This document shows, one piece after another, positions 8,669 through 26,951 of a stretch of 41,698 nucleotides of DNA. This DNA comes from Deltaproteobacteria bacterium. GTDB lineage: Bacteria; Desulfobacterota; Desulfuromonadia; Desulfuromonadales; BM103. The notes beneath the pieces are model-generated. The model saw nothing but the letters and a program-made list of their open reading frames with translations. It was not told the DNA's origin and ran no database searches. Position numbers and translations under genes: made by a program. Where the stretch lies: contig JAGXHM010000014.1 of assembly GCA_024636155.1 (NCBI GenBank), forward strand, positions 1 through 41,698, in the 5' to 3' direction. Every line of letters starts with the position of its first letter. Position 1 is the first letter of the stretch.

Positions 8669-9595
8669 CTATAAACACTGTTTTTCCACCCAGGCAACGA
8701 CGCCTTCCAAGGAACGAAAGTCCTCAACTGATCGTACGCTTATATCAGGAAAAGCGTCCTGCAGCATTTTTGCCAGGGCATTGCCAGGGCCCAACTCCAA
8801 GACCACGCCACATCCCATTTCAACGGCAGTCTGCATGCAAGCCATCCAATTGATCGGGTTCGATATTTGTTGACCAAGCACACTGATTGCCTGCTCACGG
8901 GAGCGAACCACCGAACCGCTGACGCCAGCCAGGACAGGATAAGGGGGATCATTAAGGGAAGAGGCGTGCAGCTCATCAGTAAACTGTCTGCTGGCCTCGC
9001 GCAGCCATGATGTATGCGAAGGGACATTGACCTGCAGCCGCCTGACAGTTGTGGCTTTTGCTGCCAGGGAGCTGTTCTCGCAACGGTCCAAGGCCTCTGC
9101 CGGGCCACCAAGGACAAAATGGTCTGGATTGTTGACAATTGCAATCTCGCACCCTGACTCGCTGCATAATGCATCAGCCTGTTCCCTGCCGAGTCCTCGA
9201 ACAGCCAGCAAGCCAGCGGGCCTAGGCGAGGCTTCATCCATCAGCATCGCCCGCCTTGCCATCAATGACAGGGTTTCTTCGAGGCCCAATGCTCCGGCAC
9301 ATCCGTAGGCCGCAAGCTCTCCCATGCTGTACCCGGCGAAGACGTTCGGCAACGGCAGCCTTTCGCACAAGGCCGCCCAAGTCGCCATTTGCAGCGTACC
9401 GATCAGGAGTTGTGCCGGGCGATTACAGAAAAGCTCTTGTGGGGCGAGTTGCTGGAGGTATGTGCAAGGATGACCGTCGAAAGCAGCTGAGGCCTCCCGC
9501 ATAGCGATCTGCGCAGCAGCACAGTTCAACAATTTGTCAAACATGGCCGGATGCTGGTTGCCCTGTCCGGGGCAGAAGATGCCGAGTCCTTTCAT
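8669..9595 (-). CDS. mdcH: Malonate decarboxylase malonyl-CoA:ACP transacylase (MdcH/epsilon)
   Basis: A 308-residue FabD-like acyltransferase. The start FCPGQGNQHPAMF carries the oxyanion GQG, and the nucleophile is in GYSMGELAAYG; a conserved His lies in VPSHTSWL. Known role of MdcH: transfer of malonyl from malonyl-CoA to the dephospho-CoA thiol of the decarboxylase ACP, which primes the enzyme; decarboxylation then yields the working acetyl form. Context (directly after the prosthetic-group gene mdcB) favours MdcH over the fatty-acid enzyme FabD. A good ribosome-binding site (AAGGATGAG) precedes the ATG. Known biotin-dependent clusters rely on MadH instead, so its presence next to madH is notable. 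Confidence 0.88.
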   Translation of the reverse strand: MKGLGIFCPGQGNQHPAMFDKLLNCAAAQIAMREASAAFDGHPCTYLQQLAPQELFCNRPAQLLIGTLQMATWAALCERLPLPNVFAGYSMGELAAYGCAGALGLEETLSLMARRAMLMDEASPRPAGLLAVRGLGREQADALCSESGCEIAIVNNPDHFVLGGPAEALDRCENSSLAAKATTVRRLQVNVPSHTSWLREASRQFTDELHASSLNDPPYPVLAGVSGSVVRSREQAISVLGQQISNPINWMACMQTAVEMGCGVVLELGPGNALAKMLQDAFPDISVRSVEDFRSLEGVVAWVEKQCL

Positions 9596-9641
9596 TACTC
9601 ATCCTTGCGCGGGGCGAAAAAGGGCTAAAACTCAGTGAAGA

Positions 9642-10553
9642 CTAACCTGACACCGTCACATCCCAGGATTGCAGGCGATTGACAAACACGGTGGCGGCCA
9701 GCAGGTCAGCACTGCCGCCTGGACTGAGATTGAGATCGACGAACTGCCGGTGTATTTCGACGGCGTGTTTTTGCCAGCCAAAACGATAGACTCCCCCTTC
9801 AGCAAGAAAACTTTTGGCTGATTCCTGAGCGAAGCGCAAACCCGGCTCTCCGCCTCGGTACAACAGGTTCGTATCAGGGAGGACTTCCATCAGACTGAAC
9901 AAGCATTGCACTGTGGCACTGTTCGGGTCGACACCTCTCTCAAGGCTTTTCTGCAATGCCGGAAGACCAACTTCGAACAGATGCGGGAAACCGTCAGCGG
10001 CTTCATGCAATGCACCACCGGCGCCGTAACGGGAAGCGACCTGGCTGCCGTGACTGGCTTTAGGTAGGGAATTGCCATGCTGCCTGATGGCCTCACTCCA
10101 ACAACTCATGACCACGTCACGGAGAGCGTCTTTTTGCAAGGACAGGTCAGCTTCACTAAGGTGCCCGGCGGCGGCGGCCAAAAGTCCGAGGTTGAAGATA
10201 GCGCCACGATGGGTATTGATCCCCTGTGTCGCCTTGAGCATCCGCTCCTCGGCAGTAATACCGAGCTGTTTGAGAAGCGCGAATGAAGCTCTGTGGGAAC
10301 CGGCATGTGCAATCTCGCAAAAGTACCTGCGCAATGAGAACAAGCTGCGGAAAAACAGCGCCGCATCCATGTCCTTGTGACTGCCGCTGTCGACCGGACT
10401 CACCAGACCCGGTTTGGGATAGGCTGCAAGTTCCTGATGAAGAGACTGCAAAGCGTAGCGACCGATCGTCTGTGGAACATGACGACCGGCGCGATATCGG
10501 CAGACCAGTGGGGAAATCCCCTGGCAGCTATTCAGCTTTAACTGTTGGTTCAT
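9642..10553 (-). CDS. mdcB: Triphosphoribosyl-dephospho-CoA synthase (MadG/MdcB, CitG family)
   Basis: A protein of about 303 residues that joins ATP and dephospho-CoA to make 2'-(5''-triphosphoribosyl)-3'-dephospho-CoA, the precursor of the ACP prosthetic group. CitG-family motifs are visible: YPKPGLVSPVDSGSHKDMD and TQGINTHRGAIFNLG. I start at ATG 10553, which has AAGGA about five bases upstream; an earlier ATG at 10610 would overlap the upstream gntR gene and adds no family-like sequence. It is the only such gene in the window, so it probably serves both malonate decarboxylase ACPs. The name madG is used in Malonomonas, mdcB in Klebsiella and Pseudomonas. Confidence 0.92.
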   Translation of the reverse strand: MNQQLKLNSCQGISPLVCRYRAGRHVPQTIGRYALQSLHQELAAYPKPGLVSPVDSGSHKDMDAALFFRSLFSLRRYFCEIAHAGSHRASFALLKQLGITAEERMLKATQGINTHRGAIFNLGLLAAAAGHLSEADLSLQKDALRDVVMSCWSEAIRQHGNSLPKASHGSQVASRYGAGGALHEAADGFPHLFEVGLPALQKSLERGVDPNSATVQCLFSLMEVLPDTNLLYRGGEPGLRFAQESAKSFLAEGGVYRFGWQKHAVEIHRQFVDLNLSPGGSADLLAATVFVNRLQSWDVTVSG

Positions 10554-10596
10554 GACATCCTTGCAGTGACAGCCGGCAGACGTGGACTCAAGCTGT

Positions 10597-11253
10597 CTAC
10601 ATGCTCGCAATCAGATCGGCGAAACGTTCGCCTTGGACAATAACATGGCTCCTGAGCAGCTTCGCCGCCAGATCGCTGTCACCGGTGACGATCGCCATAT
10701 AGACATCGGAATGCTCCTCATGGGAGGTTTTCATCCGGTCCCTGACCCGCAGTTGCAGACGTCTGTAAGCACTCAGCCTCCGCTTCAGGCTTTTGCATTC
10801 ATCAAGCAGGAAGCCGTTGTGGCTGGCCACGTAGATCGCCAGGTGAAACTGTTCGTTCCTCCGATAATATTCGTCAGGATCGTTTTTTTCGGCAGCTTCC
10901 TTGCAAGCCTGATGTGCGACCAGCAACGCGTGTTGGTTATCATCAGTCATGCGCCGGGCCGCCAATCGACCGCACATGGCTTCCAGCTCAGCCATCACCT
11001 CGAACATTTCGCACAGGCGTTGCGGACTGATGGCGGCAACGACGGCGCTGCGGCGCGGCTGCATATCGATCAACCCTGAAAAGGCGAGTTGCATAAGCGC
11101 CTCGCGAATCGGCGTGCGCGACACCTCGAATTCGGTTGCCAGTTCGGTCTCATCAAGCTGCATGCCCGGCAGGTAAAGGCCGGTTGCGATACGCTCCTCG
11201 ATGATTTCCCGCAGTTGCTCAGAACGGCGTGAAGGGATGGTCTGATTAGACAT
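10597..11253 (-). CDS. GntR family (FadR/FCD subfamily) regulator within the mad operon
   Basis: This 218-residue protein has an N-terminal winged helix (residues about 10-75) with the GntR signature ETELATEFEVSRTPIREALMQL, and an all-helical C-terminal FCD ligand domain with metal-ligand-type residues (EYYRRNEQFHLAI and ...SHEEHSDVYMAI). FCD regulators often sense carboxylic acids; MatR, the malonate regulator of rhizobia, is of this type. The gene is embedded between madF and mdcB, so it is probably self-regulated with the operon. A candidate operator lies upstream of the operon at 19591-19606. AGGAAGAG precedes the start. Confidence 0.9.
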   Translation of the reverse strand: MSNQTIPSRRSEQLREIIEERIATGLYLPGMQLDETELATEFEVSRTPIREALMQLAFSGLIDMQPRRSAVVAAISPQRLCEMFEVMAELEAMCGRLAARRMTDDNQHALLVAHQACKEAAEKNDPDEYYRRNEQFHLAIYVASHNGFLLDECKSLKRRLSAYRRLQLRVRDRMKTSHEEHSDVYMAIVTGDSDLAAKLLRSHVIVQGERFADLIASM

Positions 11254-11292
11254 GGGTGATCTCTTCCTCAGGGTTCCTCTGCTGTTACTCAG

Positions 11293-11502
11293 TTATTCAA
11301 TAACCATCAGAACATCACCGGCATTGATACGTGCGCCGGGAACGGCTTTTATTTCAACGACCGTACCGTCACAGGGGCTGGCCAGAGGAGTTTTCATCTT
11401 CATCGCTTCACAGATAAGCACTTTCTGGCCCTTTTCCACCGTGTCACCAACTTTTACGACGACAGTTTCCACCTTGCCTGGCATTCTTGCTTTGATTTCC
11501 AC
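11293..11502 (-). CDS. madF: Malonate decarboxylase biotin carrier protein MadF
   Basis: A 69-residue stand-alone biotinyl/lipoyl domain. The biotinylation motif EAMKMKTPLASP places the biotin on Lys35; the characteristic MPGKVETVVVKVGDTVEKG precedes it. Role: accept CO2 from malonyl-ACP through MadC/MadD and carry it as carboxybiotin to the membrane pump MadB. There is no Pro/Ala linker, so the subunit is the bare domain. The start codon is GTG at 11502, set by AGGGAGAT eight bases upstream. A biotin protein ligase must be elsewhere in the genome. Its presence is the main evidence that one of the two enzymes here is biotin dependent. Confidence 0.95.
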   Translation of the reverse strand: MEIKARMPGKVETVVVKVGDTVEKGQKVLICEAMKMKTPLASPCDGTVVEIKAVPGARINAGDVLMVIE

Positions 11503-11535
11503 AATAGATCTCCCTTGAATGATGTCTTGAACCGA

Positions 11536-12315
11536 TTATTTCATGTTTTTTATAACCATTGATTTTGCAGTGACTAGCAACCATGTGTGCGTGAATTGAA
11601 GGTCGCCTCCTGCTTCGTGCAGTTGGATGCCGGCATGCAGGCCTGATCGGGACAAGACACGCATGACCTCCTGGAGCGGCTCGGTTCGGCCTGGCACCGA
11701 GACGATCCTGGCCCATTCAGAAAAACTGCGTTGCTGATCCCAGCTCTCTTCAAATTCAGGCTCAAAGCCAGCATTACACAACTCGGCCAGGCATTCTTGG
11801 CGCGACAACATGTGAACGTGGGTCGGGTCGCGCAATTGCTCGAGGGCATTATGCAGTGTCGACTCTTCCCGGTTTGCAGAGGAGGTGACATCCGCCGTGA
11901 TCAACCGGCCATGCGGGCGCAAGACGCGACGACATTCGCCAAGTACCGCCTGGACGTCGTTAAAATGGTGAAAGGACAAGCGCGTTACGATGGCATCGAA
12001 CTCGGCATCGCCAAACGGCAAAGCCTCGGCAAACGCCTGCTGAAAGGTCACATTTGACAGCCCGGACTTCTCAAGCCGCGCCTCGGCCAGGGCAAGCATC
12101 TCTGGCGTTGCGTCAATACAAACTAATTCTGAGACGAGTGGAGAAATAGCTTCAGCAACGATACCTGGGCCACAAGCAACTTCAAGGACTCGGCCGACCG
12201 GCGCTGGACCTAAAGCAGTACTGATCTGTCGCAGTGTTTGCTCTTCCTGGAATGCCGGCGCTGTGGCCATGTTGGCTGCCTGGCGGCCAAATTCTTTTTG
12301 CATTTTCTCAACCAT
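11536..12315 (-). CDS. Class I SAM-dependent methyltransferase of unknown substrate, inside the mad operon
   Basis: A protein of about 259 residues with a Rossmann methyltransferase core: motif I VLEVACGPG, an acidic residue in LVCIDATPEML, LPFGDAEFDAIVTRLSFHHF (motifs II-III) and VLRPHGRLITADV. It is closest in appearance to the UbiE/BioC-type group. The start at 12315 is set by a strong AGGAGG and overlaps the end of madK by eight bases, so it is translationally coupled to the prosthetic-group gene; madF follows 33 bases later. No methylation step is known in malonate decarboxylation. A BioC-like action on malonyl groups, supporting biotin synthesis for MadF, is only a guess. Confidence 0.85.
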   Translation of the reverse strand: MVEKMQKEFGRQAANMATAPAFQEEQTLRQISTALGPAPVGRVLEVACGPGIVAEAISPLVSELVCIDATPEMLALAEARLEKSGLSNVTFQQAFAEALPFGDAEFDAIVTRLSFHHFNDVQAVLGECRRVLRPHGRLITADVTSSANREESTLHNALEQLRDPTHVHMLSRQECLAELCNAGFEPEFEESWDQQRSFSEWARIVSVPGRTEPLQEVMRVLSRSGLHAGIQLHEAGGDLQFTHTWLLVTAKSMVIKNMK

Positions 12316-13057
12316 ATTGTCCTCCTGCAGCCCTTGAAAGGATTTGCCCGAACCCTTCTTGTGGCAGCTCCGCCAATATCTGTTTACGAGATAGCAGAGC
12401 CACATCGGTCAAGCTTTTGCCAAGGACAGTACGCCCTTGGCCAAAGAGTTCTTTCAGATGCACCCCATAACCATTGGCAAGGTCCAGTTCAACATCGATG
12501 CGCAGATTTAAATGTGCTTCGATCGACTCAATCTTGTGTAGAAATAGAGACAACGACTGCTGGGGTGCAACCGCCACCAACAAATCGAGATCCGAGTCTT
12601 GGTGGGTGCATGGCAACCCGGTATACAGTTCTAATGCGGCAGAACCCCACACTCCAAGAACAAGGTGTAATCCCTTTGCCTGGTCTCTGGCATGAGCAAG
12701 AGCCGTATTACAGGCATTGCGTGGTAGGGCGGCGGTCAATGACAAGAGCTCGTAGGGACTGGTTGTTCGCACGACATCTTCCTCTCTGATAAAGGCTGCC
12801 ACGCGCAAACGCCCTTCATTATTAATCATGGGGGCACTGAAACCGACCGGGATAAAACCAGGACGCAGTGTTCCCTCTTCACGTCTGGCAATGCCAGGAA
12901 CCCGAGCACCCGCTTCCTCTGGCAAAAGAATTTGAGCATACTTTTTTCTGAGCATACCGCTGTCGGGGCCGCTTCCTGCCAACTCAACAAGAATGTCCTC
13001 ACGTCCACGGTCAGTGATGTCAAGTAAGGTATGCCGCTTAACGTCCATGAATTTCAA
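12308..13057 (-). CDS. mdcG: Malonate decarboxylase holo-ACP synthase (MdcG; MadK position)
   Basis: A 249-residue nucleotidyltransferase that transfers the phosphoribosyl-dephospho-CoA group to the serine of the decarboxylase ACP, releasing pyrophosphate. The MdcG core is visible in the middle: GVWGSAALELYTGL followed by the metal-binding DSDLDLLV, and a further acidic strand RIDVELDL. The N-terminal half (RHTLLDI..., GFSAPMINNEGRLRV) is also family-like. It lies between madH and a methyltransferase gene, the place of madK in Malonomonas (from memory). It is the only copy in the window and probably modifies both MadE and MdcC. Confidence 0.9.
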   Translation of the reverse strand: MKFMDVKRHTLLDITDRGREDILVELAGSGPDSGMLRKKYAQILLPEEAGARVPGIARREEGTLRPGFIPVGFSAPMINNEGRLRVAAFIREEDVVRTTSPYELLSLTAALPRNACNTALAHARDQAKGLHLVLGVWGSAALELYTGLPCTHQDSDLDLLVAVAPQQSLSLFLHKIESIEAHLNLRIDVELDLANGYGVHLKELFGQGRTVLGKSLTDVALLSRKQILAELPQEGFGQILSRAAGGQYG

Positions 13058-13083
13058 TTACCTTTATACTTGTGGCTTGCAAC

Positions 13084-14196
13084 TCAGCGAGTCTTGTGCC
13101 AGGTCGGATCAGTTTTGGCCGTTTGCTGCAAATCAAGCTGGGCCTGGATCATAATATCAAACATTCGAGTCTTTTCTGGTCCAGTGAAGATGGCCGCCAC
13201 CTCAGGACAACAACCACGCTCTGCAAGTGCGGGTACAAGCTCCAGTACGGTGGCCGGTGCGCCAAGCTTCAGATCAGGCCGCACCTTCACAACACGGCCT
13301 TTGATACGCAGGATGGTCCTTGCAACACGATCCACCGTTTCTGCTGAAGCAAGTGTGGTTGCGGTTACATAGACCTCATATTCAGGATGCGTACGCTGTC
13401 GTCGATAGGTGATTATTTCTCCCGCAAGCTCACCTGTCACCCGACAGACATGCCCGGAGGTGCTAATGGGAAAGCTGTCCCCCATAGGCAACCCGCCGAC
13501 AACGAGTTCGTTGTAATGTTCGTGGTGAGGAGACGGGATCAGGCTGATATCGTCACGCAGAGGAATGCCATCCAGGGTGAGCCAACCAAATTCCTGACAA
13601 CCGTAGAGATCATGCACCTGCCAGCCAAACTTTTCTGCAGCAGGGAGCAGTTCCAAATCGAGGGTCGTGCCAGCAGTGAAGACGATAATATCGCGAGGGA
13701 TCAAATCTTCCAGCCCCAGCGAACAAGCATCCGTTAACGAAGCACGAAGGAAGCTTGACTCACCCAACACAACGGCAGGTTGGTCCTTGCATAGAGTCAG
13801 GATGAAAGCATCGCGACTGGAACGCTTGGGGAAATTCCAGGTTAGACCGAATTGTGTTAAGGCGTCCGCCGGAAACACGTTCACCAACGGAGCATAAGAG
13901 ATTAGGACATGACTGCCGGGGGACACTCCTGCCAACTGAAAGGCTTTAAGCGACGCCTTAGCTCTTTCTGGTAGCTCAGCATGGGTGACACCGACGATAT
14001 TCTGGAAAGCTGTGGAACCGGTGGTGAAGCTCAAAAAGGCCAGGTTGTACGGAGTATGGATCTCCTCGATGACGTGTGCTGCAGTCGCGCCAGCAATCCC
14101 TTTGTCGACGAGGGTGCGCCGATCAGCCGTTTCCAGTGTAGGCGCTGTAGCGAATTCATCCACCATGTTCTCGAGATCTTTTAATAAGTCTGACAT
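13084..14196 (-). CDS. madH: Acetate:SH-ACP ligase (deacetyl-ACP activating enzyme) MadH
   Basis: A protein of about 370 residues of the adenylate-forming, phenylacetate-CoA-ligase-like type. Visible motifs are FLSFTTGSTAFQN (nucleotide loop), VFTAGTTLDLELLP and HDLYGCQEFGWLTLDG (the adenine-binding YGxxE-like segment). Role in Malonomonas: use acetate plus ATP to acetylate the thiol of the ACP prosthetic group, turning the enzyme on. I start at ATG 14196 (MSDLLKDLENMV); the frame continues upstream into madD but lacks a ribosome-binding site there. Gene order D-H-K agrees with the mad cluster. It lacks most of the C-terminal lid domain of larger ligases. Confidence 0.85.
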   Translation of the reverse strand: MSDLLKDLENMVDEFATAPTLETADRRTLVDKGIAGATAAHVIEEIHTPYNLAFLSFTTGSTAFQNIVGVTHAELPERAKASLKAFQLAGVSPGSHVLISYAPLVNVFPADALTQFGLTWNFPKRSSRDAFILTLCKDQPAVVLGESSFLRASLTDACSLGLEDLIPRDIIVFTAGTTLDLELLPAAEKFGWQVHDLYGCQEFGWLTLDGIPLRDDISLIPSPHHEHYNELVVGGLPMGDSFPISTSGHVCRVTGELAGEIITYRRQRTHPEYEVYVTATTLASAETVDRVARTILRIKGRVVKVRPDLKLGAPATVLELVPALAERGCCPEVAAIFTGPEKTRMFDIMIQAQLDLQQTAKTDPTWHKTR

Positions 14197-14218: not shown

Positions 14219-15097
14219 TTAAGACAGATATCTCTCGGCAACAGCGGCAAACTCGTCATCCATGGTCTGGATAACCTTGCTCCGAGCCACACGACTGCCG
14301 CGTTCGACACTCAGGGCTCCCCTGCCCCACGGACCAAGTTCGTCGTCTCTGCCGGCAAGTTTTTTGGTACGCACTTCTGCGACATGCGCAACAACCCGCT
14401 CACGTATCAATTCGATGCTGTCAATAAGTTCTTCCACACCACCAAGCTTGTAAAAATAGTCTGGCCCAGCAGCAAACACCGGGTTGTTCTCAGCCAGTTC
14501 CTGAAGCCACTCAATATCGAGTTTGGTGATGCGAGAAATACTGGTAATCGGCATAACGTGGATCATGGTGTTGAATTTTGGGCCGAGAGACAAAACGTGG
14601 TCGGCCTGCAGACCATGGCAAAGGAAGCCACCAGATATGGCACGCCCCACGACGATCGCCACGATGGGATGACCCACCTTACGGGCATCGGCCAGAGCCA
14701 TCTGGTAAGCTCCGGTAGACTTGTTCATGCCGAAGATCTCTTCGTGCTTACCGGCGCCGTTACCTGGAGTGTCAACGATCAACACAATTGAGCGTTTTTC
14801 CGCAAGCGGTTTATCTTTATCAGCCTTGATACTGTGATAAACAGCCTGGGCCATTTTATAGCCTTCTTCCAGTCCGATAATCCCGGCGTAGACGACAGGA
14901 AATTTAGGATTAGCAGTCATAGCATCGCTGGCAATAATTGTACAAATCTCACCATCAAGTTCGGCGGTACCGATCACGGCGCTGGCACCGAAATCCTCGT
15001 CAGTTATGCTCAGTTCACCGACTTCACCTTCCCGAAAACTGTCCGGGTCAATAATCATATCAATAGCGGCACGGCCTTGGCCGATCAGGTCTTCCAT
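14219..15097 (-). CDS. madD: Malonyl-S-ACP:biotin-protein carboxyltransferase subunit MadD
   Basis: A protein of about 292 residues with the crotonase-like carboxyltransferase fold. Seen: VYAGIIGLEEGYKMAQAVYHSIKA, VLIVDTPGNGAGKHEEIFGMNKS, and the oxyanion-hole-type GRAISGGFLCHGLQADHVL. With MadC it moves the carboxyl of malonyl-ACP to biotin on MadF. I prefer ATG 15097, seven bases after AGGAG; the ATG at 15103 is too close to it. It starts 10 bases after madC ends. It is clearly longer than the second gamma-type protein at 20323-21021 and differs from it throughout. Confidence 0.9.
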   Translation of the reverse strand: MEDLIGQGRAAIDMIIDPDSFREGEVGELSITDEDFGASAVIGTAELDGEICTIIASDAMTANPKFPVVYAGIIGLEEGYKMAQAVYHSIKADKDKPLAEKRSIVLIVDTPGNGAGKHEEIFGMNKSTGAYQMALADARKVGHPIVAIVVGRAISGGFLCHGLQADHVLSLGPKFNTMIHVMPITSISRITKLDIEWLQELAENNPVFAAGPDYFYKLGGVEELIDSIELIRERVVAHVAEVRTKKLAGRDDELGPWGRGALSVERGSRVARSKVIQTMDDEFAAVAERYLS

Positions 15098-15107
15098 CGT
15101 CATTCTC

Positions 15108-16073
15108 CTAGTACCTGTCCGTAAGACGTTTGACCGTTGTCAGGAACTCATCAAGAGGCATATCTGTCAGGTCGTCAGGGTTTTCATTGCCCGCTGACTT
15201 CCAAACATCCTTGGCATCCTTTGGAGCCGTCTCGACACAAAGGTCAACCAGCTTGAGCTGATACTGAATCTTTTCCAGGCTACCAATACAGCTCATTTCT
15301 GCAATTTCAGCATAGAGTTTGCCCAGAACTTCTTGGAGTGCACCGCGAAAAGCGGCAATGGAGTCCGCCACCAGAACATTGCAGTCGCCCATGATATATT
15401 TATGCCGACCTCCAGTGGTTCGATAAACCAGAGCCCGATCGGAGGCATCAAACTCGTCCTTCCCCATCTCCTCTTCGATCACCTCGGGCCCGGTCAATCC
15501 AAGACGACCAAACTGACTCATGATAATCACATCGCTCGCTGCAGCGACAAAACCCATACCGCCAAAACAGCCGACGCGACTACCGATTAAGGCGATTATG
15601 GGGACCTTACCTTTGCAGTCTTGAAATTGGTCCATGACTTCCGCGTGAGCCAGCAGACCCGCATTGGCTTCATGCAGACGAACACCACCTGTATCAAAAG
15701 AGATGATCACGGCAGGACGCTTTTCCTCTGGCAAGTCGGGGTTGGAAGCTAACATTTCATCATAGGCTTTACGAGCCATGCGCACAATGTTGGCCAGCTT
15801 GGCACCATGCACTTCACCTACGGCTCCGCCAATAAAACGGCCTTCCTGAGAAGCTACGAACACTGGCTTTTTGCCGATCAATCCCACACCGGTGACGATA
15901 CCATCATCAAACTCCACGGCCTCACCCAACAAAGGCAAATGAGGGCTGGAAATGCGGTGCCTGGGACCAGCTAATTCCGTGAAAGTACCAGGGTCGACAA
16001 GGCCAAGGGCTCGTGTACGTGCTTCACTCTCAAGAAAACTACGCTTCTGAATATTTTCCCATTTGCTAGACAT
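15108..16073 (-). CDS. madC: Malonyl-S-ACP:biotin-protein carboxyltransferase subunit MadC
   Basis: A 321-residue subunit related to the acetyl-CoA carboxylase beta and MdcD families. Visible: GPRHRISSPHLPLLGEAVEFDD, FIGGAVGEVHGAKL, DTGGVRLHEANAGLLAH, and RVGCFGGMGFVAAASDVIIM. It forms the carboxyltransferase with MadD. The start at 16073 (MSSKWENIQKRSF) has GAGGAG nine bases upstream and lies 12 bases after madE; an upstream Met at 16088 overlaps madE. Differences from the second copy (for example the longer segment around MLASNPDLPEEKRPAVII) support its assignment to the biotin-dependent type. Confidence 0.92.
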   Translation of the reverse strand: MSSKWENIQKRSFLESEARTRALGLVDPGTFTELAGPRHRISSPHLPLLGEAVEFDDGIVTGVGLIGKKPVFVASQEGRFIGGAVGEVHGAKLANIVRMARKAYDEMLASNPDLPEEKRPAVIISFDTGGVRLHEANAGLLAHAEVMDQFQDCKGKVPIIALIGSRVGCFGGMGFVAAASDVIIMSQFGRLGLTGPEVIEEEMGKDEFDASDRALVYRTTGGRHKYIMGDCNVLVADSIAAFRGALQEVLGKLYAEIAEMSCIGSLEKIQYQLKLVDLCVETAPKDAKDVWKSAGNENPDDLTDMPLDEFLTTVKRLTDRY

Positions 16074-16084
16074 GCCGACTCTCC

Positions 16085-16402
16085 TCAATCAACTTCAGAC
16101 AGCGCCTGGCGCAGTCGCAGTGAAACCACGACCGGAGTCGCATTATTGTCATTGATTTCAAGGCTGGCATTGGCAACTCCGGTATCGTTAACAAAACGTT
16201 CCAGGACACGCCGCCAAACTTCATCGTAGCCAGTGACCGGCGTGACAATTTTAACCTTGACGGCGCCATCCAAATTCTTCTGCTCGATAATGACTTCCAT
16301 GTCACCAGAACCGACCACGCCAAAGTGGGCAAAATCTTCTACAAAGTCGGTTGGGTTCTGCGCTTTTAGTTCAAAGGTTATTTCATGAAGTTGTTTCGAC
16401 AT
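16085..16402 (-). CDS. madE: Malonate decarboxylase acyl-carrier protein MadE
   Basis: A 105-residue ACP of the MdcC/CitD-like type. Unlike fatty-acid ACP it has no DSL motif; the prosthetic group, 2'-(5''-phosphoribosyl)-3'-dephospho-CoA, is attached to Ser32 in VVGSGDMEV. The C-terminal half (DEVWRRVLERFV and ASLEINDNNATPVVVSLRLRQAL) is typical. It lies 18 bases after madA, with AGGAG upstream of the ATG. The protein carries acetyl or malonyl groups between MadA, MadCD and MadH/MdcH. Confidence 0.93.
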   Translation of the reverse strand: MSKQLHEITFELKAQNPTDFVEDFAHFGVVGSGDMEVIIEQKNLDGAVKVKIVTPVTGYDEVWRRVLERFVNDTGVANASLEINDNNATPVVVSLRLRQALSEVD

Positions 16403-16420
16403 AAAGCTGCACTCCTGTTA

Positions 16421-19333: not shown

Positions 19334-19471
19334 TCAGTCTGCCTCCTGCTCGTTTCCGGAGGTGGTGTTGCCGCCCATCAGTTTGTTAATAATGACGATC
19401 AACCCCACCACTGCCAGAGAAATCACCGCGGTGAGTCCGTAGGCCATACATGCGTAAGCAATACTGTTCAT
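19334..19471 (-). CDS. Small one-helix membrane protein, first gene of the mad operon (possible gamma-like subunit of MadB)
   Basis: A 45-residue reading frame, MNSIAYACMAYGLTAVISLA followed by a hydrophobic stretch VVGLIVIINKLMGG and a short acidic tail ending NEQEAD. It has one predicted transmembrane helix. AGGGTGAG lies just upstream of the ATG, and its TGA overlaps the madB start region (ATG at 19332), a strong sign of a real, coupled gene. Other sodium-pumping decarboxylases (oxaloacetate, methylmalonyl-CoA) have a small one-helix gamma or delta subunit that stabilises the complex; by position and form this could be its counterpart. Sequence alone does not prove homology. Confidence 0.75.
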   Translation of the reverse strand: MNSIAYACMAYGLTAVISLAVVGLIVIINKLMGGNTTSGNEQEAD

Positions 19472-19583: not shown

Positions 19584-19590
19584 AACATCA

Positions 19591-19704: not shown

Positions 19705-20244
19705 TCAGGAAGTCAGTACTGCTGGCTCATCCGACTTGAGAGGCAGATCCTTGAATCCCTCTGGAATTCTGACCAACAACACAGGGATGGACGATTCGTG
19801 GACGACCTTGAAGGCACAAGAACCTAACAACGCACCAGGTTTGGTTGTCTTGCGGTGAGTGCCCATGACAATCATGTCAGCCATTAATTTTTCGGCACAT
19901 TGAAGAATTGCCAGGTCAGGCGAATCTTCAATAACATGGATATTGCTCACATACTGGTAACCATCGGGATCGTCGATGATTGCCGATTTGCACATTGCTT
20001 CCACCTGCCCTTCGAGCTCGAGCTTGACTCTGGCTCTGGCCTGTTGGTGAAATTCTTCTGTGCTTTCACGGCCAATATAGATTGCAGCAACTTTATGCGA
20101 ATATTGCTTGAATGAGGCCATACCACAGACAATTTCGATTTTTGCCTGATATTGGCGGGCGAGGCTGAGGGCGTAACGAAACACATGTGGTGCTCCACTA
20201 CCCAACCCTGTGGCATAAACAATTGTTTTGATGTCTGGTGTCAT
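19705..20244 (-). CDS. Universal stress protein (UspA family)
   Basis: About 179 residues of the Usp fold. The C-terminal nucleotide-binding signature is visible as MGTHRKTTKPGALLGSCAFKVVHESSIPVLLV, close to the ATP-binding G-2x-G-9x-G-S/T pattern. The start at 20244 (MTPDIKTIVYATGLG) follows GGGGGT. It is the last gene of the TRAP-mdcACDE direction, 78 bases after mdcE, and probably shares its transcript. Usp genes often sit beside TRAP transporters (TeaD with the ectoine system is the known case, where it dampens uptake), so a role in adjusting transport is plausible but unproven. Confidence 0.85.
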   Translation of the reverse strand: MTPDIKTIVYATGLGSGAPHVFRYALSLARQYQAKIEIVCGMASFKQYSHKVAAIYIGRESTEEFHQQARARVKLELEGQVEAMCKSAIIDDPDGYQYVSNIHVIEDSPDLAILQCAEKLMADMIVMGTHRKTTKPGALLGSCAFKVVHESSIPVLLVRIPEGFKDLPLKSDEPAVLTS

Positions 20245-20322
20245 GTGTACCCCCAAAAAGTTGTTTGTCTGACTGTTTGGCCCGCGAGGGTCGTTTGAAT
20301 ACGATTAATACTTTCGAAACAA

Positions 20323-21021
20323 TTAGCCTTCCTTGACCCGTTGAGCTATCGGATAAGCAAGTTTTCGTCCCTCTCGCATAAAACCGCTATGTCGCCTATG
20401 ATCGTCACCAACCTCCAGTCCGATCACCTTAACCAGCTGCTCCGCTAGCGGTGCCTGCCAAACAGTTTGGACACCGCCGAGTTTGATGAAATTCTCAATC
20501 CCCGGAGCAAATGAAGGCGACGTGACACTCAACTCTTGCAACTGTTCCAGTGGCAGCTTGGTGATCCGTGCCATAGCAGGGAGATTCATCACACGGACTC
20601 TTGCCTCCGCCAGAGTGTGAATTTCGTCTGCCATCATGCCGAAGGCGAGGAAGCCGCCGCTGACCGCCTCAGAATAAATCAGGGTGATCAACTGATGCCC
20701 ACGCTGTCGAGCCAACTGCAGGCATTTTGCCAGATGCGCCAGGTAACCGTTTATACCAAGCAGCTCATCTTTCTTGCTTAAACGCTGACCCTGGGTATCC
20801 ACAAGCATCAGAATTGGCTGACCAGGAGAGTTTTTGATGACCATCAACACAAAGTCAGCAAGCGTAAGCGCGGTTTCAACACCAATCGCAAGATGATCAG
20901 TAGTCCCCAAAACAGCTATCTTGCCCTTTCCTGTCGAACCGAATCCGGTGAGGATATTCTGTACATTTTTTACCGCATGCCCCATCGGGAACAACTCATT
21001 TAACAAATTTTCAATCTTCAT
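20323..21021 (-). CDS. mdcE: Malonate decarboxylase gamma subunit, biotin-independent type (MdcE)
   Basis: A 232-residue crotonase-fold subunit. The stretches LMLVDTQGQRLSKKDELLG, GYLAHLAKCLQLARQRGH, YSEAVSGGFLAFGMMADEI and LPAMARITKLPLEQLQELS match, from memory, the MdcE family of soluble malonate decarboxylases rather than MadD. With MdcD it removes CO2 from malonyl-S-ACP without biotin, regenerating acetyl-S-ACP. It overlaps the end of mdcD by four bases (ATGA), so the two are coupled. It is about 60 residues shorter than madD in the same window. Confidence 0.88.
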   Translation of the reverse strand: MKIENLLNELFPMGHAVKNVQNILTGFGSTGKGKIAVLGTTDHLAIGVETALTLADFVLMVIKNSPGQPILMLVDTQGQRLSKKDELLGINGYLAHLAKCLQLARQRGHQLITLIYSEAVSGGFLAFGMMADEIHTLAEARVRVMNLPAMARITKLPLEQLQELSVTSPSFAPGIENFIKLGGVQTVWQAPLAEQLVKVIGLEVGDDHRRHSGFMREGRKLAYPIAQRVKEG

Positions 21022-21929
21022 AGATTACCTTGAACCTTACCCTCTACAGCCTTAAGAAAACTTGGGATATCCATCAGGGGCAACTTTTGTGGATCTGCAA
21101 TACCCATAGCTCCCCAGATCTCCGCTCCATCTTGAGAGTGCCCGTAGTTTGCCAGACGTTGACTCAAGACCAGATTCTCCTGTTCCAGTGACTCCAGAGA
21201 CAAAGGTTGCACTTTATCAATGATTTCGATAGCAGCCGCACGAAATGCTTCAATATCATCTTCTACCAGGCATTGCACCTCACCCAACAAGTAGCGATGT
21301 TTGCCGCCGACTGTCCGCCAGACTAGCGCGCGATCAGTGGAATCGAATTCTTCGACCCCCATTGTGGTTTCGATAACATCTGGCCCGGAAAGACCAAGAC
21401 GACCTTCTTCATTGATAATCAAAGCATCGCAACATCGGGCCACTATACCCATCCCACCGAAGCAACCATAGGCACCTCCGATCAGACCAAGCACCGGTAT
21501 CCCGGATTTCCTGGTCGTAAGCAGTGCGCGGATCACCTCGGAAATGGCTATCAGGCCAGCATTCGCTTCATGCAAACGCACTCCGCCGGATTCAAGCAGC
21601 AAGAGAACAGCAGCCGGCTTTTCATCCACCGCACGTTCGAGCAGGCCGGTCAGTTTGGCGCCATGCACCTCTCCCACAGACCCACCCATAAAACCGCCCT
21701 CCTGGCTGGCAATCAGGACCGGTAAACCGTTCAGGTTGCCGGTGCCGATAATGATGCCATCATTGAAAGAACAGGGCTGCCCTAATGGTTCAAGATGTGG
21801 ACTTGCAATTCGTTCAGCGGGGCCGATAAGTTCCTGGAAACTATTACTATCCAGAAGTTTGGATATTCGGTCTCGAGCAGTGGCTTCGTAGTAGCTATGA
21901 CCACGACGGATGCCGGAGAGGTCACTCAT
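21018..21929 (-). CDS. mdcD: Malonate decarboxylase beta subunit, biotin-independent type (MdcD)
   Basis: A 303-residue subunit. Family stretches: IGPAERIASPHLEPLGQP, GGFMGGSVGEVHGAKLTGLL, AAVLLLLESGGVRLHEANAG, YGCFGGMGIVARCCDALI, EEFDSTDRALVWRTVGGKHR and LVEDDIEAFRAAA. The latter segments resemble, by recall, MdcD of Pseudomonas and Klebsiella more than the MadC at 15108-16073. It forms the decarboxylase with MdcE. It overlaps both neighbours by four bases, an arrangement of tight translational coupling that is absent in the mad unit. Confidence 0.9.
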   Translation of the reverse strand: MSDLSGIRRGHSYYEATARDRISKLLDSNSFQELIGPAERIASPHLEPLGQPCSFNDGIIIGTGNLNGLPVLIASQEGGFMGGSVGEVHGAKLTGLLERAVDEKPAAVLLLLESGGVRLHEANAGLIAISEVIRALLTTRKSGIPVLGLIGGAYGCFGGMGIVARCCDALIINEEGRLGLSGPDVIETTMGVEEFDSTDRALVWRTVGGKHRYLLGEVQCLVEDDIEAFRAAAIEIIDKVQPLSLESLEQENLVLSQRLANYGHSQDGAEIWGAMGIADPQKLPLMDIPSFLKAVEGKVQGNL

Positions 21930-22243
21930 GTTGATATCTCCAGATATTCTTCCATGGCCTGATCGAGACGCAAACAGACTACAGCGGGGGTTGCCCCTCC
22001 ATCATTAATTGAAATCTGCAGATTTGCCAGATTATATCGGGCAACGAAATCGTTTAGAACTGCTTGCCATATCTCACCAAAACCTTGAGCCGAAGTACTC
22101 ACATTGATACGACAGAGACCATTCAGATCGGCATTCTCAAGCATAACTTCTAGGTTGCCGGAAGAAACCACGCCTGACAAAGTAGCTTGCTGGCTATCTT
22201 CACGATTTCCTGAACACTCGAACTCGAACTGCAGATGTTCCAT
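21926..22243 (-). CDS. mdcC: Malonate decarboxylase acyl-carrier protein, second copy (MdcC/delta)
   Basis: A 105-residue ACP. The serine for the dephospho-CoA prosthetic group is Ser28 in VVSSGNLEV, aligned with Ser32 of MadE; the end NLQISINDGGATPAVVCLRLDQAM is the typical C-terminal motif. It starts 26 bases after mdcA with AAGGATAG upstream and overlaps mdcD by four bases. It is as long as MadE but clearly diverged, which would allow a specific match with its own MdcA and MdcDE partners while sharing the modifying enzymes MdcB and MdcG. Confidence 0.92.
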   Translation of the reverse strand: MEHLQFEFECSGNREDSQQATLSGVVSSGNLEVMLENADLNGLCRINVSTSAQGFGEIWQAVLNDFVARYNLANLQISINDGGATPAVVCLRLDQAMEEYLEIST

Positions 22244-22269
22244 TATCTATCCTTGTTGACTCGACTAGT

Positions 22270-23919
22270 TTACCAGTTGCGAAAACTTTTAGGGGGTTGA
22301 TAGAGCCCCCCGGACCAGTGCACAAGCTCTTTGACCGTGCGTGCGGCCAGCAAATCACGGGTAGCCATACGATGATCGACGCCAAGATCTTCCGGGCGGC
22401 TGACGATACCGCGATCGCGAAGATTTTCCACTGCGCTGTGAGAGCGGCCCAGCCCTAATGGAGTGTATCCCGCCACACCTCTGATCGCGTCATTCCGCTC
22501 TTCCTCAGTGCGGCAGAGCAGCAGGTTGGCAATCCCCTCTTCAGTGACAATATGGCTGACATCGTCGCCATAGACCATGATCGGCGGCAACTCCATACCG
22601 GTCTTTTCCATCATTTCCCAGGCATCGAGTCGCTCAACAAAGGCTGGCTGCATATGCTCGCGATAGGTTTCCATTATTTGTACGACCAGCTTTCGGCCAC
22701 GCGGTGTGGTCGACAAGCCAGACTGTGCCTCACGTCCGGCTTTTAACCAGGTAGGACTGACGTGTCGACGGCCGCGCGCATCGGCGCCAAGGTTGGGAGC
22801 GCCGCCAAAACCTGTGATGCGATCCAAAGTTACCGTCGAGCTGTTACCCTGAAGATCCATCTGCAACGAAGAGCCAATGAACAGATCACATGCATAATGG
22901 CCAGCAGCATGACTGAAAGCACGATTGCTGCGCTGGCTGCCGTCACTGCCAGTGAAAAAAACATCAGGGCGAGCAGACACATAGTCTTCCATGCCCAACT
23001 CAGAACCTGGGGAATAGACAGATTCAACAAAACCGGCTTCAATGGCCGGGATCAACGTCGGATGAGGATTGAGCATCCAGTGTCGGCAGATCTTGCCTTT
23101 CAAACCGAGACTTTGCGCATAAGTCGGCAAGAGTAATTCGATAGCGGCGGCATTGAAACCGACTCCGTGGTTCAGGCGATTGACATCATACTTAGCATAG
23201 ATGCCCTTAATCACCATCATCGCCATCAGAATCTGAATTTCGCTGATCTGTGCCGGATCGCGGGTAAACAAAGGCTCAAGTGCATGCGGAGTCGGGGCTT
23301 GCGTGACATAATCAATCCAATCGCCAGGGATATCGACCCGTGGCAACGTCTCTACAATCTGGTTAACTTGTGCGATCACGATGCCGCTTTTGAAAGCAGT
23401 TGCCTCGACAATCGTTGGAGTATCTTCGGTATTGGGTCCAGTGTAGAGGTTGCCCTGTCGATCGGCACTGTGCGCGACGATTAAGGACACTTTGGGAGTG
23501 AGGTCGATGAAGTAGCGGCCGAAAAGTTCAAGGTAGGTGTGGATTGCGCCTATTTTGATTTTGCCGTCAGCAACCAGTTGCGCCATGCGGGTGCCCATCG
23601 GTCCGGAGTAACTGAAATCGACCTTATGGGCAATGCCGCGCTCGAATAGTTCGATATGCGAAGGCAGTGCAATGACCGATTGCACCATATGCAGATCGTA
23701 CACTCGCTGCGGATCGACCTGAGCCAGACAACGTGCCAGAAAGTCGGCCTGTTTTTGGTTGTTCCCTTCCAAACAGACACGGTCGCCAGGCTCAATCACC
23801 TCTTCGAACAATGCGGTTACGCGGTCTGCAGGAACGATTTTTCCCTTGCAGACGGACGACGCGCGCAACAGTCTAGCCCGGCGATTCTCAGCTTGTGTAT
23901 CCCATTTTTTGATTGCCAT
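22270..23919 (-). CDS. mdcA: Malonate decarboxylase alpha subunit, acetyl-S-ACP:malonate ACP transferase (MdcA, second copy)
   Basis: A 549-residue paralogue of MadA. Shared landmarks: EGNNQKQADFLARCL, GAIHTYLELFGRYFIDLTP, NLYTGPNTEDTPTIVEA, RLNHGVGFNAAAIELLLP, ITGFGGAPNLGADARGRRH, and the end PKSFRNW. It catalyses exchange of acetate for malonate on MdcC. The ATG has AGGAAGG upstream; the gene begins 75 bases after the TRAP permease gene, in the same direction. Divergence from madA is spread over the whole chain, so this is an old paralogue or a separately acquired gene, not a recent duplication. Confidence 0.93.
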   Translation of the reverse strand: MAIKKWDTQAENRRARLLRASSVCKGKIVPADRVTALFEEVIEPGDRVCLEGNNQKQADFLARCLAQVDPQRVYDLHMVQSVIALPSHIELFERGIAHKVDFSYSGPMGTRMAQLVADGKIKIGAIHTYLELFGRYFIDLTPKVSLIVAHSADRQGNLYTGPNTEDTPTIVEATAFKSGIVIAQVNQIVETLPRVDIPGDWIDYVTQAPTPHALEPLFTRDPAQISEIQILMAMMVIKGIYAKYDVNRLNHGVGFNAAAIELLLPTYAQSLGLKGKICRHWMLNPHPTLIPAIEAGFVESVYSPGSELGMEDYVSARPDVFFTGSDGSQRSNRAFSHAAGHYACDLFIGSSLQMDLQGNSSTVTLDRITGFGGAPNLGADARGRRHVSPTWLKAGREAQSGLSTTPRGRKLVVQIMETYREHMQPAFVERLDAWEMMEKTGMELPPIMVYGDDVSHIVTEEGIANLLLCRTEEERNDAIRGVAGYTPLGLGRSHSAVENLRDRGIVSRPEDLGVDHRMATRDLLAARTVKELVHWSGGLYQPPKSFRNW

Positions 23920-23994: not shown

Positions 23995-25314
23995 TCAGTG
24001 GATAGCTTCTCCCATCATGGCCGTTGGCAGCCAGGTCGCAATCTCAGGGAAAATGCATAAGATTATTATCGCCACAACCATGCACACCATAAAAGGAAGA
24101 GCGCCCTTGAGAATGGTTGGCAAAGATATATCCGGCGCAATCCCGTTGATCACATAAAGGTTCAGACCAACCGGCGGGGTAATCAACCCGATTTCCATAT
24201 TGATGGTAAAGATAACGGCGAACCAGTAGGGATCGAATCCGACAATTTCAATAATTGGCAGCAAGATAGGGGCTGTCATCACTATGACTGCTACGGGCGG
24301 CAGAAAGAACCCGGCAACCAGCAGGAAAACATTGATGATTGCCATCAAAACCCAGCGATTAACATCCAGGGCAGCAATGTATTCTGCCACCGACTGAGTT
24401 ACATAAAGGCTTGAAAGCATGTAGGCAAACAGGGCCGACGCCGCAATAATCATCATGATCATCACGCTTTCCTTCATCGAACCACTAATGATCGCCCAGA
24501 TTTTTTTAGGTTGCCAGACCTTATAAATGACCGCAACCATAATGAGGACAAACATCGCCCCAACACCGGCCGCTTCCGAGGGAGTTGCAACCCCACCATA
24601 GAGAACGAACAAAACACCGACGATAATCACCAGAAAGGGCAAGACGCGCGGCAGGACTTCCAGCTTTTCCTTTAGCGTAAAACCTTTCCCCGTACTGCTA
24701 AAGCTGTAACCATTACGCCAGGCGGTAAAAAGCGACCAGGCAATAAACAGTCCGGTCAGTAGGACGCCAGGGAACAAGCCGGCCATAAACAGGCGGCCAA
24801 TAGAGGTTTCTGTCGCAATACCATAAACGATCATGGTGATTGACGGCGGGATAAGGATTCCCAGGGTTCCGCCAGCGGCAATAGATCCAGCCGCCAGTCC
24901 ATCTGGATATCCCCGCTTGCGCATTTCAGGAATACCCATTTTACCGATCGCTGCGCAGGTCGCCGGTGAAGAGCCGCTGAGGGCGGCAAAAACCGCACAG
25001 GCACCAATGTTTGACATAATCAAGCCACCGGGTAAACGGTGCAACCAACGATCCAAGGCTTCGTAAAGGTCTTTGCCGGCAGGCGAAGAAGCAACTGCTG
25101 CGCCCATAACAATAAACATCGGGATTGAAACTAGCGAGAATTCGGCGATACCGGAAAAGAATATATCGGCCATGATATTGAGAGCATCAAGACCTTCGAA
25201 GATGGCTAGAAACGATATAGCTACCAATCCCAGGCCAAAGGCAATCGGGATACCGCAAGCCAATATGATGACAGTACTCAGAGCAATGAATACACCTATA
25301 ATTAGAGGGCTCAT
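23995..25314 (-). CDS. matM: TRAP transporter large permease (DctM), probable malonate importer
   Basis: A 439-residue membrane protein with about 12 helices, of the DctM family: GAAVASSPAGKDLYEALDRW, LSGSSPATCAAIGKMGIPEM, AAGGTLGILIPPSI and the end block MEIGLITPPVGLNLYVING are characteristic. It forms the Na+-coupled channel part of the TRAP system. The gene overlaps the small permease gene by four bases. Its place directly before mdcACDE, together with the known malonate TRAP system MatPQM of Sinorhizobium, suggests malonate as substrate; the symbol reflects this inference. Confidence 0.85.
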   Translation of the reverse strand: MSPLIIGVFIALSTVIILACGIPIAFGLGLVAISFLAIFEGLDALNIMADIFFSGIAEFSLVSIPMFIVMGAAVASSPAGKDLYEALDRWLHRLPGGLIMSNIGACAVFAALSGSSPATCAAIGKMGIPEMRKRGYPDGLAAGSIAAGGTLGILIPPSITMIVYGIATETSIGRLFMAGLFPGVLLTGLFIAWSLFTAWRNGYSFSSTGKGFTLKEKLEVLPRVLPFLVIIVGVLFVLYGGVATPSEAAGVGAMFVLIMVAVIYKVWQPKKIWAIISGSMKESVMIMMIIAASALFAYMLSSLYVTQSVAEYIAALDVNRWVLMAIINVFLLVAGFFLPPVAVIVMTAPILLPIIEIVGFDPYWFAVIFTINMEIGLITPPVGLNLYVINGIAPDISLPTILKGALPFMVCMVVAIIILCIFPEIATWLPTAMMGEAIH

Positions 25315-25850
25315 GATCTATCTCCTTCACTCGTGCCATGTGCCTCTGCACCTGATCGAAAAGGCATATCATTACCGGTGACCAGAGCCATTATGTCAGC
25401 GACATATTGTAGCGACATGAGACCGATACCGAGCGGTATGGATAGATAAGGAATCCAGAGGGGCAAAGCCCAGATAGTGTCGGTTGTCCAGTCATTGACC
25501 AGCGCTTCATAAAAAAATTCGAAACCCTTCCAGGTCAGCACCGCACAGAAAAGCAATCCCAGAAGGCTGGCTGTCAGGGCCAAGACGAATCGCCCTCTAG
25601 GTCCCATATAATGTGGCAAGAGATCGACATTAACGTGGCCTTTGACCAATAGAACATATGGGCACCCGATAAAGGTCGAACCGACCAGCGAGAAGATGAC
25701 AAATTCAGTTTGCCAGATCGTCGAAGCGTTGAGAAAGTAGCGCATCACCACCATCTGGCATACGACAATAATGGCCAAACCGACCAATACGGCCGCGATA
25801 ACGCCGCAAGCATTTGAAACCACGCTGACGAACTTACAGAAACTTTTCAT
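25311..25850 (-). CDS. matQ: TRAP transporter small permease (DctQ), probable malonate system
   Basis: A 179-residue protein with four predicted helices. The DctQ landmark WQTEFVIFSLVGSTFIGCPYVLLVKGHVNVDLL region spans helix 2 to helix 3 (about residues 60-95). It pairs with the large permease to form the membrane part. It lies 102 bases after the binding-protein gene, a common spacing when the binding protein is made in excess. The short Glu/Gly-rich C-terminus is unremarkable. Confidence 0.87.
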   Translation of the reverse strand: MKSFCKFVSVVSNACGVIAAVLVGLAIIVVCQMVVMRYFLNASTIWQTEFVIFSLVGSTFIGCPYVLLVKGHVNVDLLPHYMGPRGRFVLALTASLLGLLFCAVLTWKGFEFFYEALVNDWTTDTIWALPLWIPYLSIPLGIGLMSLQYVADIMALVTGNDMPFRSGAEAHGTSEGDRS

Positions 25851-25952
25851 AAGAACCTCACCTTCTCAGCGAAAAACAGACCTTTACCATAACAGTGACG
25901 CAGGAGAAAGCCCTGGGAACGCCCGGTTAAGGTCGTCCCCAGGGGCAGGAGA

Positions 25953-26951
25953 TTATTCGACTGCAAGAGCTTTTTCGATCAACTCTTTACCGCCTGGAAC
26001 ATTTTCAGAAAAGTTCTTATATGATGTCTCTTGGGCAATAGCTTTCCATGCTGCAGCCTGCTCGGCTGTCATGGTCACAACTTCAACGCCTGCTTTTTTG
26101 TAGACTTCAACCATTTTGTCGTCCAGACCCGCAGCTTCACCAGCCATATAATCTTCAGCTTTTTGACCGGCAGCCATCAGAGCATCCTGCTGAGCCTTGT
26201 TGAGCTTGTCCCAGCTTTTCTTCGACATAAGGATAGGCTCATACATAAACCATAAAGCATATTCGCCAGGGGCCGTCAGGCAGGTCGCTTGCTCGTAAAT
26301 ACGGTATGACACAAAACTTCCGGAGCTGGTATTAGCAGCGTCCAGAACCCCTGTCTGCATAGCTTGATAAATGGCCGCGCTCGACATTGAGGAGATCGAC
26401 GCACCAGCACCAACCAGCATTTGCTCAAAAGCAGGCCCGGCAGCGCGGGTTACCTGCCCAGCCATAGTCTCTGGTCCTAGAATACACTGCTTTTTTGAGG
26501 CAAAACCACCGGCCAACCAGCCATCTGCCAGAACGACAACTCCTGCATCGTTAATGATTTTTTTGATGTCATCCATAAACGGTGAATCATTCAAACGCTG
26601 AGCGTGTGCGTGGTTCTTGACCAAACCTGGCATCAGAGTCGCACTGAACTGTGGATGGCGACCACTGGCGTAATCGAGTGGGAATGCCGAAATGTCGAGT
26701 TGTCCCTTGACCATCGCACCCCACTGTTCTTTGGGTTTGAAAAGTGATTTTCCGGGATAAATCTTAATTTCAAGATCGACGTTAGCCTTGGCAACTTCCT
26801 TTGCTATTATCTGCACCATCTCGTCCCGCACATCCCCCTTACCACCAGGCCACTGGTGCGAGGCTTTCAATGTTGCAGCACTGGCGTAACCGGCAACACT
26901 CACAAAGGCGAAAGCGACAGTCCAAATCATTGTTTTCTTGAAAATCGACAT
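25953..26951 (-). CDS. matP: TRAP transporter periplasmic solute-binding protein (DctP), probable malonate receptor
   Basis: A 332-residue DctP-family protein. A Sec signal peptide is visible at residues 1 to about 25 (KKTMIWTVAFAFVSVAG followed by ASA). The conserved ligand Arg lies in TRAAGPAFEQMLVGAGA near residue 168, followed by AAIYQAMQTGVLDAANTSS, typical of the family. It binds the substrate in the periplasm and delivers it to DctQM. A strong AAGGAGG precedes the ATG. The gntR gene upstream ends 85 bases before. Substrate as malonate is inferred from the neighbouring mdc genes. Confidence 0.87.
   Translation of the reverse strand: MSIFKKTMIWTVAFAFVSVAGYASAATLKASHQWPGGKGDVRDEMVQIIAKEVAKANVDLEIKIYPGKSLFKPKEQWGAMVKGQLDISAFPLDYASGRHPQFSATLMPGLVKNHAHAQRLNDSPFMDDIKKIINDAGVVVLADGWLAGGFASKKQCILGPETMAGQVTRAAGPAFEQMLVGAGASISSMSSAAIYQAMQTGVLDAANTSSGSFVSYRIYEQATCLTAPGEYALWFMYEPILMSKKSWDKLNKAQQDALMAAGQKAEDYMAGEAAGLDDKMVEVYKKAGVEVVTMTAEQAAAWKAIAQETSYKNFSENVPGGKELIEKALAVE

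Follow-up and report, generated by a model that had tools for sequence, protein, structure and literature searches.

Why should a bacterial cell keep two malonate decarboxylases of different mechanism next to each other, and do both of them act on malonate? This question is raised by a stretch of 41,698 nucleotides (contig JAGXHM010000014.1, hereafter the window) from the draft genome of a bacterium of the order Desulfuromonadales (137 contigs totalling 2.9 Mb; completeness 72%), of which the minus strand carries an island with two A-E-C-D decarboxylase gene sets. Set 1 (14219-18085) is accompanied by madB, madF and madH, as in the biotin-dependent, Na+-pumping Mad type of enzyme, and set 2 (20323-23919) resembles the biotin-independent Mdc type. 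That two decarboxylase types are encoded is, judged from the genes and trees presented below, almost certain. With moderate confidence, the locus as a whole is best explained by two complete decarboxylases that depend on an acyl carrier protein (ACP), with shared cofactor genes and a likely different substrate for set 2.

Two decarboxylase types in one island

Along the minus strand, on which all features of the island are located, the genes from 27738 to 8669 read gntR2, the tripartite ATP-independent periplasmic (TRAP) transporter genes P-Q-M, mdcA, mdcC, mdcD, mdcE, a universal stress protein gene, an open reading frame of 45 amino acids, madB, madA, madE, madC, madD, madH, mdcG, a methyltransferase gene, madF, gntR1, mdcB and mdcH. 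A preliminary description of this DNA had claimed that both kinds of malonate decarboxylase are encoded side by side, and all genes named therein possess intact open reading frames.

Set 1 is composed of the ACP transferase (alpha) gene madA (16421-18085; TIGR01110, 969.8 bits, cut-off 789), in which the malonate contacts named below are retained, the ACP gene madE (16085-16402; TIGR03130, 114.4 bits) with its attachment Ser, and the beta and gamma carboxyltransferase genes madC (15108-16073; profile match) and madD (14219-15103). The carboxybiotin decarboxylase Na+ pump is encoded by madB (18124-19332; TIGR03136, 672.4 bits, cut-off 597), with 70% identity to MadB of Malonomonas rubra, and the biotin carrier by the short, GTG-starting madF (11293-11502), with the biotinylation motif EAMKM, a PF00364 match of 63.8 bits and 45-65% identity to MadF of non-dual Mad loci. 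Set 2 comprises mdcA (22270-23919; TIGR01110, 927.6 bits, cut-off 789), an ACP transferase gene with an altered pocket (Phe312Pro, Gln345His), the ACP gene mdcC (21926-22243; TIGR03130, 115 bits), again with the attachment Ser, the beta decarboxylase gene mdcD (21018-21929; profile match) and the gamma decarboxylase gene mdcE (20323-21021; TIGR03134, 239.7 bits, cut-off 237.15, a margin of 2.5 bits). The gamma chain measures 294 amino acids in set 1 (or 292, the start being uncertain) and 232 in set 2.

All four set-2 subunits score above the family cut-offs, and the same models also accept set 1. As both gamma and both beta chains match models named 'biotin-independent', NCBIfam names were rejected as evidence of type, and since they do not discriminate, the types were told apart by trees and residues. 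The beta and gamma trees contained 54 chains each, namely 27 Mad, 17 Mdc and five chains each of set 1 and set 2 from the window and four further dual genomes. The Mad rows represent 27 of 37 non-dual loci with MadB and a set-1-type alpha subunit, chosen for spread (L064, L065 and L110 excluded), and the Mdc rows 13 of 45 matching plasmid records and four genome loci.

In these family trees, which the preliminary description had suggested as a check, set 1 falls into the Mad clade (support 100/99 for beta, 97/89 for gamma) and set 2 groups with the pump-less Mdc operons of Azospirillum, Burkholderia, Variovorax and rhizobia (97/94 for beta, 100/97 for gamma). The approximately unbiased (AU) test rejected set 1 and set 2 as a single clade (p 8e-4 for beta, 2e-7 for gamma), and a topology that unites set 2 with Mad and set 1 against all Mdc was likewise rejected (p 0.043 and 0.008). 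The alpha tree (52 rows) is concordant on both sets. Less favourable is the ACP tree (50 rows, 24 Mad and 17 Mdc), which places set 2 again with Mdc and leaves the placement of set 1 unsettled. A recent duplication of set 1 as the source of set 2 was rejected on the same beta-subunit test and on the identity of the beta subunits, which is 41-44% across the dual loci. The trees are unrooted and display three clades, classical Mdc, Azospirillum-type Mdc with set 2, and Mad with set 1, so that 'Mdc' may not be one clade; set 2 is filed here as Mdc-type by its predicted fold and mechanism, leaving the substrate aside.

A single residue of the gamma subunit reproduces this division. At the site of Gln100, all 32 Mad-type chains carry Asn and all 22 Mdc-type chains carry Gln, a split that holds for all 54, with Asn in madD of the window. 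Equivalents of both catalytic residues, Gln100 and Ser142, are present in the five set-2 gamma chains; mutation of either residue of MdcE has been reported to lower activity about tenfold (PMC5534430). Ser142 is retained throughout the 54 chains except for four alphaproteobacterial Mdc chains (L176, L177, L182, L183) with Ala. Asn at this site would mark biotin-transferring as opposed to CO2-releasing gamma subunits, its role being deduced from the distribution. Together with the AU test, the split bears out the claim of two kinds side by side. Set 2 might alternatively be a further carboxyltransferase supplying the MadF/MadB pump of set 1, as its location in one cluster with the pump could indicate; however, its relatives reside in operons where neither MadB nor MadF was seen and it possesses Gln where all Mad-type chains have Asn, which renders this alternative improbable.

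Recurrence and history of the locus

A scan of GTDB contigs for MadB identified 79 loci, of which three (L064, L065 and the 3.5-kb piece L110) belong to dual-locus genomes, all metagenome-assembled genomes named Desulfuromonadales or Geobacteraceae. Within the order of the window, 5 of 136 genomes carry two alpha genes in the dual arrangement, namely the window genome (G000), G395, G396, G433 and G566, while M. rubra carries one. Of 395 genomes drawn evenly from the phylum, none but that of the window scored above the MadB cut-off. Completeness is 99% for G395 and G433 and 87% for G396. In these three, contig breaks lie inside genes and the contiguity of the gene order is inferred; G566, a single-contig chromosome of 3.96 Mb from another family than the window, displays the entire gene order unbroken. 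An assembly chimera or chance was rejected as the origin of the arrangement, as gene content and order recur in four further genomes, in one of them on a single-contig chromosome.

Redundancy alone would speak for set 2 as a decaying or neutral duplicate. Yet no broken frame was seen among the set-2 copies, gene order is retained across families, and the four set-2 genes compared with G395 show a ratio of nonsynonymous to synonymous substitution rates (dN/dS) of 0.03-0.11 at a dS of 1.0-1.5, so that this explanation appears highly implausible. Wherever computable, dN/dS was 0.03-0.23; several rows were saturated and gave no ratio, and one G395 row was excluded, as it compared the first with the second alpha gene.

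The two halves of the island may have separate histories. MadB of the window is closer to G566 (94% identity) than to G396 (80%), although RecA is more distant (82.6% and 92.6%, respectively), which is why at least the Mad genes have probably moved between families. For the set-2 alpha subunit this signal is weaker (83% to G566, 82% to G396), synonymous divergence from G566 is higher for the set-2 genes than for the Mad genes, and the TRAP genes of G566 are merely 35-53% identical to those of the window.

The alpha-subunit pocket and the substrate of set 2

In Pseudomonas aeruginosa MdcA, the carboxylate of malonate has been reported to contact Arg341, Asn292 and Gln345, with its CH2 group over Phe312 (PMC5534430). 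These contacts are strongly conserved rather than formally defining features of the family. Set 2 keeps Asn292 and Arg341, and equally Asn59 and Tyr134; in all five dual loci, Phe312 is replaced by Pro and Gln345 by His, in a region where the alignment is ungapped, the two residues of the window chain being Pro304 and His337. Phe312 and Gln345 are present in all 48 comparison alpha subunits (27 Mad, 17 Mdc and four set 1) and Pro/His in none; in G433, the set-1 alpha gene and the full set-2 alpha gene are split by contig ends and are missing or partial in the alpha counts. A wider alignment comprised 87 rows from 84 distinct sequences, the two of the window and a reference being repeated; in it, residue 312 is Phe in 77 rows, Pro in six (five loci, the window counted twice), Val in two, Ala in one and a gap in one, and residue 345 is Gln in 80, His in the same six and a gap in one. 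Among 182 conserved alpha columns, three are changed throughout set 2, two being malonate contacts and the third lying four residues from Gly381; two of five orphan MdcA rows (L014, L016) were left out of this comparison, being in the wrong reading frame. The chance of at least two changed columns among seven named malonate-near residues amounts to 0.004, a post hoc figure.

The loss of the Phe under the malonate CH2 and of the Gln on the carboxylate is the reason to propose another substrate for set 2, and the changes hint at a related acid. Of the two roles put forward in the preliminary description, enzymes for two related substrates is favoured in this way, though unproven, and two rates for one substrate has become the less favoured. 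Several observations weigh against the proposal. Phe312 is altered in three other MdcA, all alphaproteobacterial (Val in L239 and L240, Ala in L247), and the third changed column, Met385Leu, occurs also in four rows outside set 2 of the wider alignment, so the losses in set 2 need not mean a new substrate. The gene neighbourhoods of the Phe312Val and Phe312Ala operons indicated no substrate. Furthermore, the closest solved relative of the TRAP solute-binding protein DctP (25953-26951; E 1e-63) is 4MCO, reported to hold malonate (PMC4086125), which would suit malonate for set 2. The remaining transporter genes encode the small permease DctQ (25311-25850; PF04290) and the large permease DctM (23995-25314; PF06808); an AlphaFold model of DctP with a mean pLDDT (predicted local distance difference test) of 42 was not used.

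Both enzymes might accordingly act on malonate, with set 1 conserving energy under energy limitation and set 2 providing a fast uncoupled route. Besides the kinship of DctP, the retention of Arg341, Asn292, Asn59, Tyr134 and the catalytic Gln and Ser in set 2 is consistent with such a role, and four genomes with Mad and Mdc at separate loci retain Phe and Gln in both copies, so that two malonate enzymes per cell do seem to occur. On the other hand, the pocket changes are fixed in all five set-2 alpha subunits, and action of both enzymes on malonate is regarded as possible, though on balance doubtful. That set 2 differs in substrate from set 1 is given an even chance. As an observation apart, the genome with the Ala312 copy (L247) holds a second MdcA (L238) with Phe.

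A proposed nested operon and probably shared prosthetic-group genes

The Azospirillum-type operon has the order A-C-D-E-G-B-H; in the window, A-C-D-E and gntR-B-H flank the Mad block, which suggests that the block lies within an Mdc operon. The triphosphoribosyl-dephospho-CoA synthase gene mdcB (9642-10553; TIGR03132, 323.9 bits) groups with Azospirillum-type Mdc (100/98; 25 Mad and 17 Mdc rows), and a clade with Mad was rejected (AU p 0.043). The holo-ACP synthase gene mdcG, also madK (12308-13057; TIGR03135, 126.2 bits), joins the Mad locus of Saezia (99/95; 26 Mad and 16 Mdc rows in the final tree), with weaker deeper forks, and is probably of the Mad lineage.

A search of four dual genomes, G000, G395, G396 and G433, yielded a single mdcB and a single mdcG in every one, in agreement with the single prosthetic-group set of the preliminary description. 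In each of the four genomes with separate loci, mdcG occurs twice and the mdcB-like matches number three to five, some of them probably citG. As the single mdcB belongs to the Mdc lineage and the single mdcG is nearest to Mad, the two enzymes seem to draw on one chimeric pathway for the prosthetic group, and sharing of one set is considered very probable. The mdcB of the Mad block and the mdcG of the Mdc operon would have been lost; MdcB would make the cofactor precursor and MdcG charge both ACPs. Opposed to this account, Mad mdcG do not form one clade in the mdcG tree, and the AU test only marginally disfavours a union of mdcG with Azospirillum-type Mdc (p 0.054) and does not reject one with all Mdc (p 0.149). 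The nested history is deduced from the order of the genes and from two gene trees.

Further genes of the island and its relatives

The epsilon subunit, malonyl-CoA:ACP transacylase, is encoded by mdcH (8669-9595), which scores slightly below the TIGR03131 cut-off (296.5 against 297.9 bits) and is 45-48% identical to Azospirillum MdcH (16 Mdc rows in its tree). The product of madH (13084-14196), which we take to be a putative ACP:acetate ligase, is AMP-binding, has 45-62% identity to the gene following madD in non-dual Mad loci, a weak PF00501 match below cut-off and no NCBIfam match. Regulator gntR1 (10597-11253) is 42-43% identical to the mdc-adjoining GntR of Azospirillum, Agrobacterium and Bradyrhizobium; its orientation is reversed in G396 and G433 (L211, L212), whereas in the window, G395 and G566 it shares the strand of the island. 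Regulator gntR2 (27037-27738; profile match), ahead of the TRAP and set-2 genes, adjoins the TRAP genes in the window, G396, G433 and G566 and is about 7.5 kb away in G395. The universal stress protein gene between both sets (19705-20256; PF00582) is retained in all five dual loci. Directly upstream of madB, the 45-amino-acid reading frame (19334-19471; no Pfam match), by eye a probable membrane protein, is matched at 34 of the 40 loci that combine MadB with a set-1-type alpha subunit. A gene for an S-adenosylmethionine-dependent methyltransferase without assigned role (11536-12315; PF08241, 92.3 bits) is linked in four of five dual loci, either between mdcG and madF (window, G566) or past mdcH (G396, G433), with none seen in the G395 pieces. 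At most one gene from mdcH, an ADH-family quinone-oxidoreductase-like gene (6940-8010 in the window) is present in the four dual genomes examined (window; L187, L211, L226), and a TauE/SafE-type permease is near in three; beyond the window, these genes were assigned by visual judgement of similarity.

Among the relatives, nine loci of Flavonifractor and other clostridial genomes (L076, L087, L092, L101, L103, L104, L105, L109, L114) encode MadB relatives (62-66%) adjoining a single carboxyltransferase-like reading frame of 518-562 amino acids, about 30% identical to MadC, with a MadF-like carrier in eight of nine and no MdcA or ACP in the stretch examined, perhaps a different Na+-pump decarboxylase. 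An MdcA-like gene (53-59%) occurs in five genomes of the phylum (L196-L200), where no partner C, D or E was found within the 9.7-17 kb examined. The Mad operon L078, on a contig binned as Sporobacter termitidis, is almost identical to that of Phytobacter and probably mis-binned.

Proposed mechanism and implications

Gene content, clades, active-site residues and conservation in five genomes are established at the level of sequence, and a division of labour can be proposed on these grounds. Set 1 would take malonate and pass the carboxyl group from malonyl-ACP on to the biotin of MadF, from which MadB would release it as CO2 while pumping Na+. Set 2 would decarboxylate its acyl-ACP directly without biotin; most likely, though less certainly, it would take a C2-substituted malonate such as methyl- or hydroxymalonate, or handle malonate differently. 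A more far-reaching version is put forward tentatively, as somewhat less than an even prospect: a mobile, interlocked island, in which a Na+-pump Mad system is nested in a biotin-free operon with its alpha subunit retuned to C2-substituted malonate, each system has shed the half of the prosthetic-group pathway that the other retains, and neither works without a gene of the other.

The locus allows decarboxylation with and without energy conservation to be compared naturally, side by side, within one cell. It further provides a single-residue marker (Asn/Gln) which separates the gamma types among the 54 chains studied, and a concrete hypothesis, based on the pocket, about an as yet unassigned substrate. 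If true, the shared chimeric cofactor genes show how two operons become mutually dependent.

Comparison with known systems

No description of both types in one organism was found in the literature searched, most subscription journals lying outside its coverage. The closest system to set 1 is the Mad locus of M. rubra, a member of the same order, with the same succession madB-A-E-C-D-H followed by mdcG and madF and subunits 54-79% identical; it differs in having one alpha gene and, preceding madB, an mdcB-like gene of its own, and no Mdc set was seen in its 14.6-kb contig. Nearest to set 2, mdcB and mdcH is the Azospirillum/Burkholderia/Variovorax-type operon (mdcA-C-D-E-G-B-H; beta 58-65%, alpha 70-76% identical; gamma likewise short), which lacks the Mad block, has an alpha subunit with Phe312 and Gln345 and an mdcG of another lineage; to our knowledge, there is no biochemistry for this subclade. 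The Mdc of Pseudomonas and Klebsiella (PDB 5VIT, 5VIP) shares with set 2 the subunit plan, Gln100, Ser142 and the ACP Ser25, but belongs to a separate beta and gamma clade (Klebsiella rows), has the order A-B-C-D-E and carries Tyr102 where set 2 has Leu.

The assumption of the preliminary description that known organisms have one type or the other did not hold, since among 45 genomes reached via MadB loci, 4 from outside the Desulfuromonadales possess both at separate loci, as found by the genome comparison performed here. Klebsiella grimontii, K. spallanzanii, Phytobacter massiliensis and Azospirillum sp. TSO35-2 combine Mad and Mdc as the window does, but in separate loci, each equipped with its own mdcB and mdcG.

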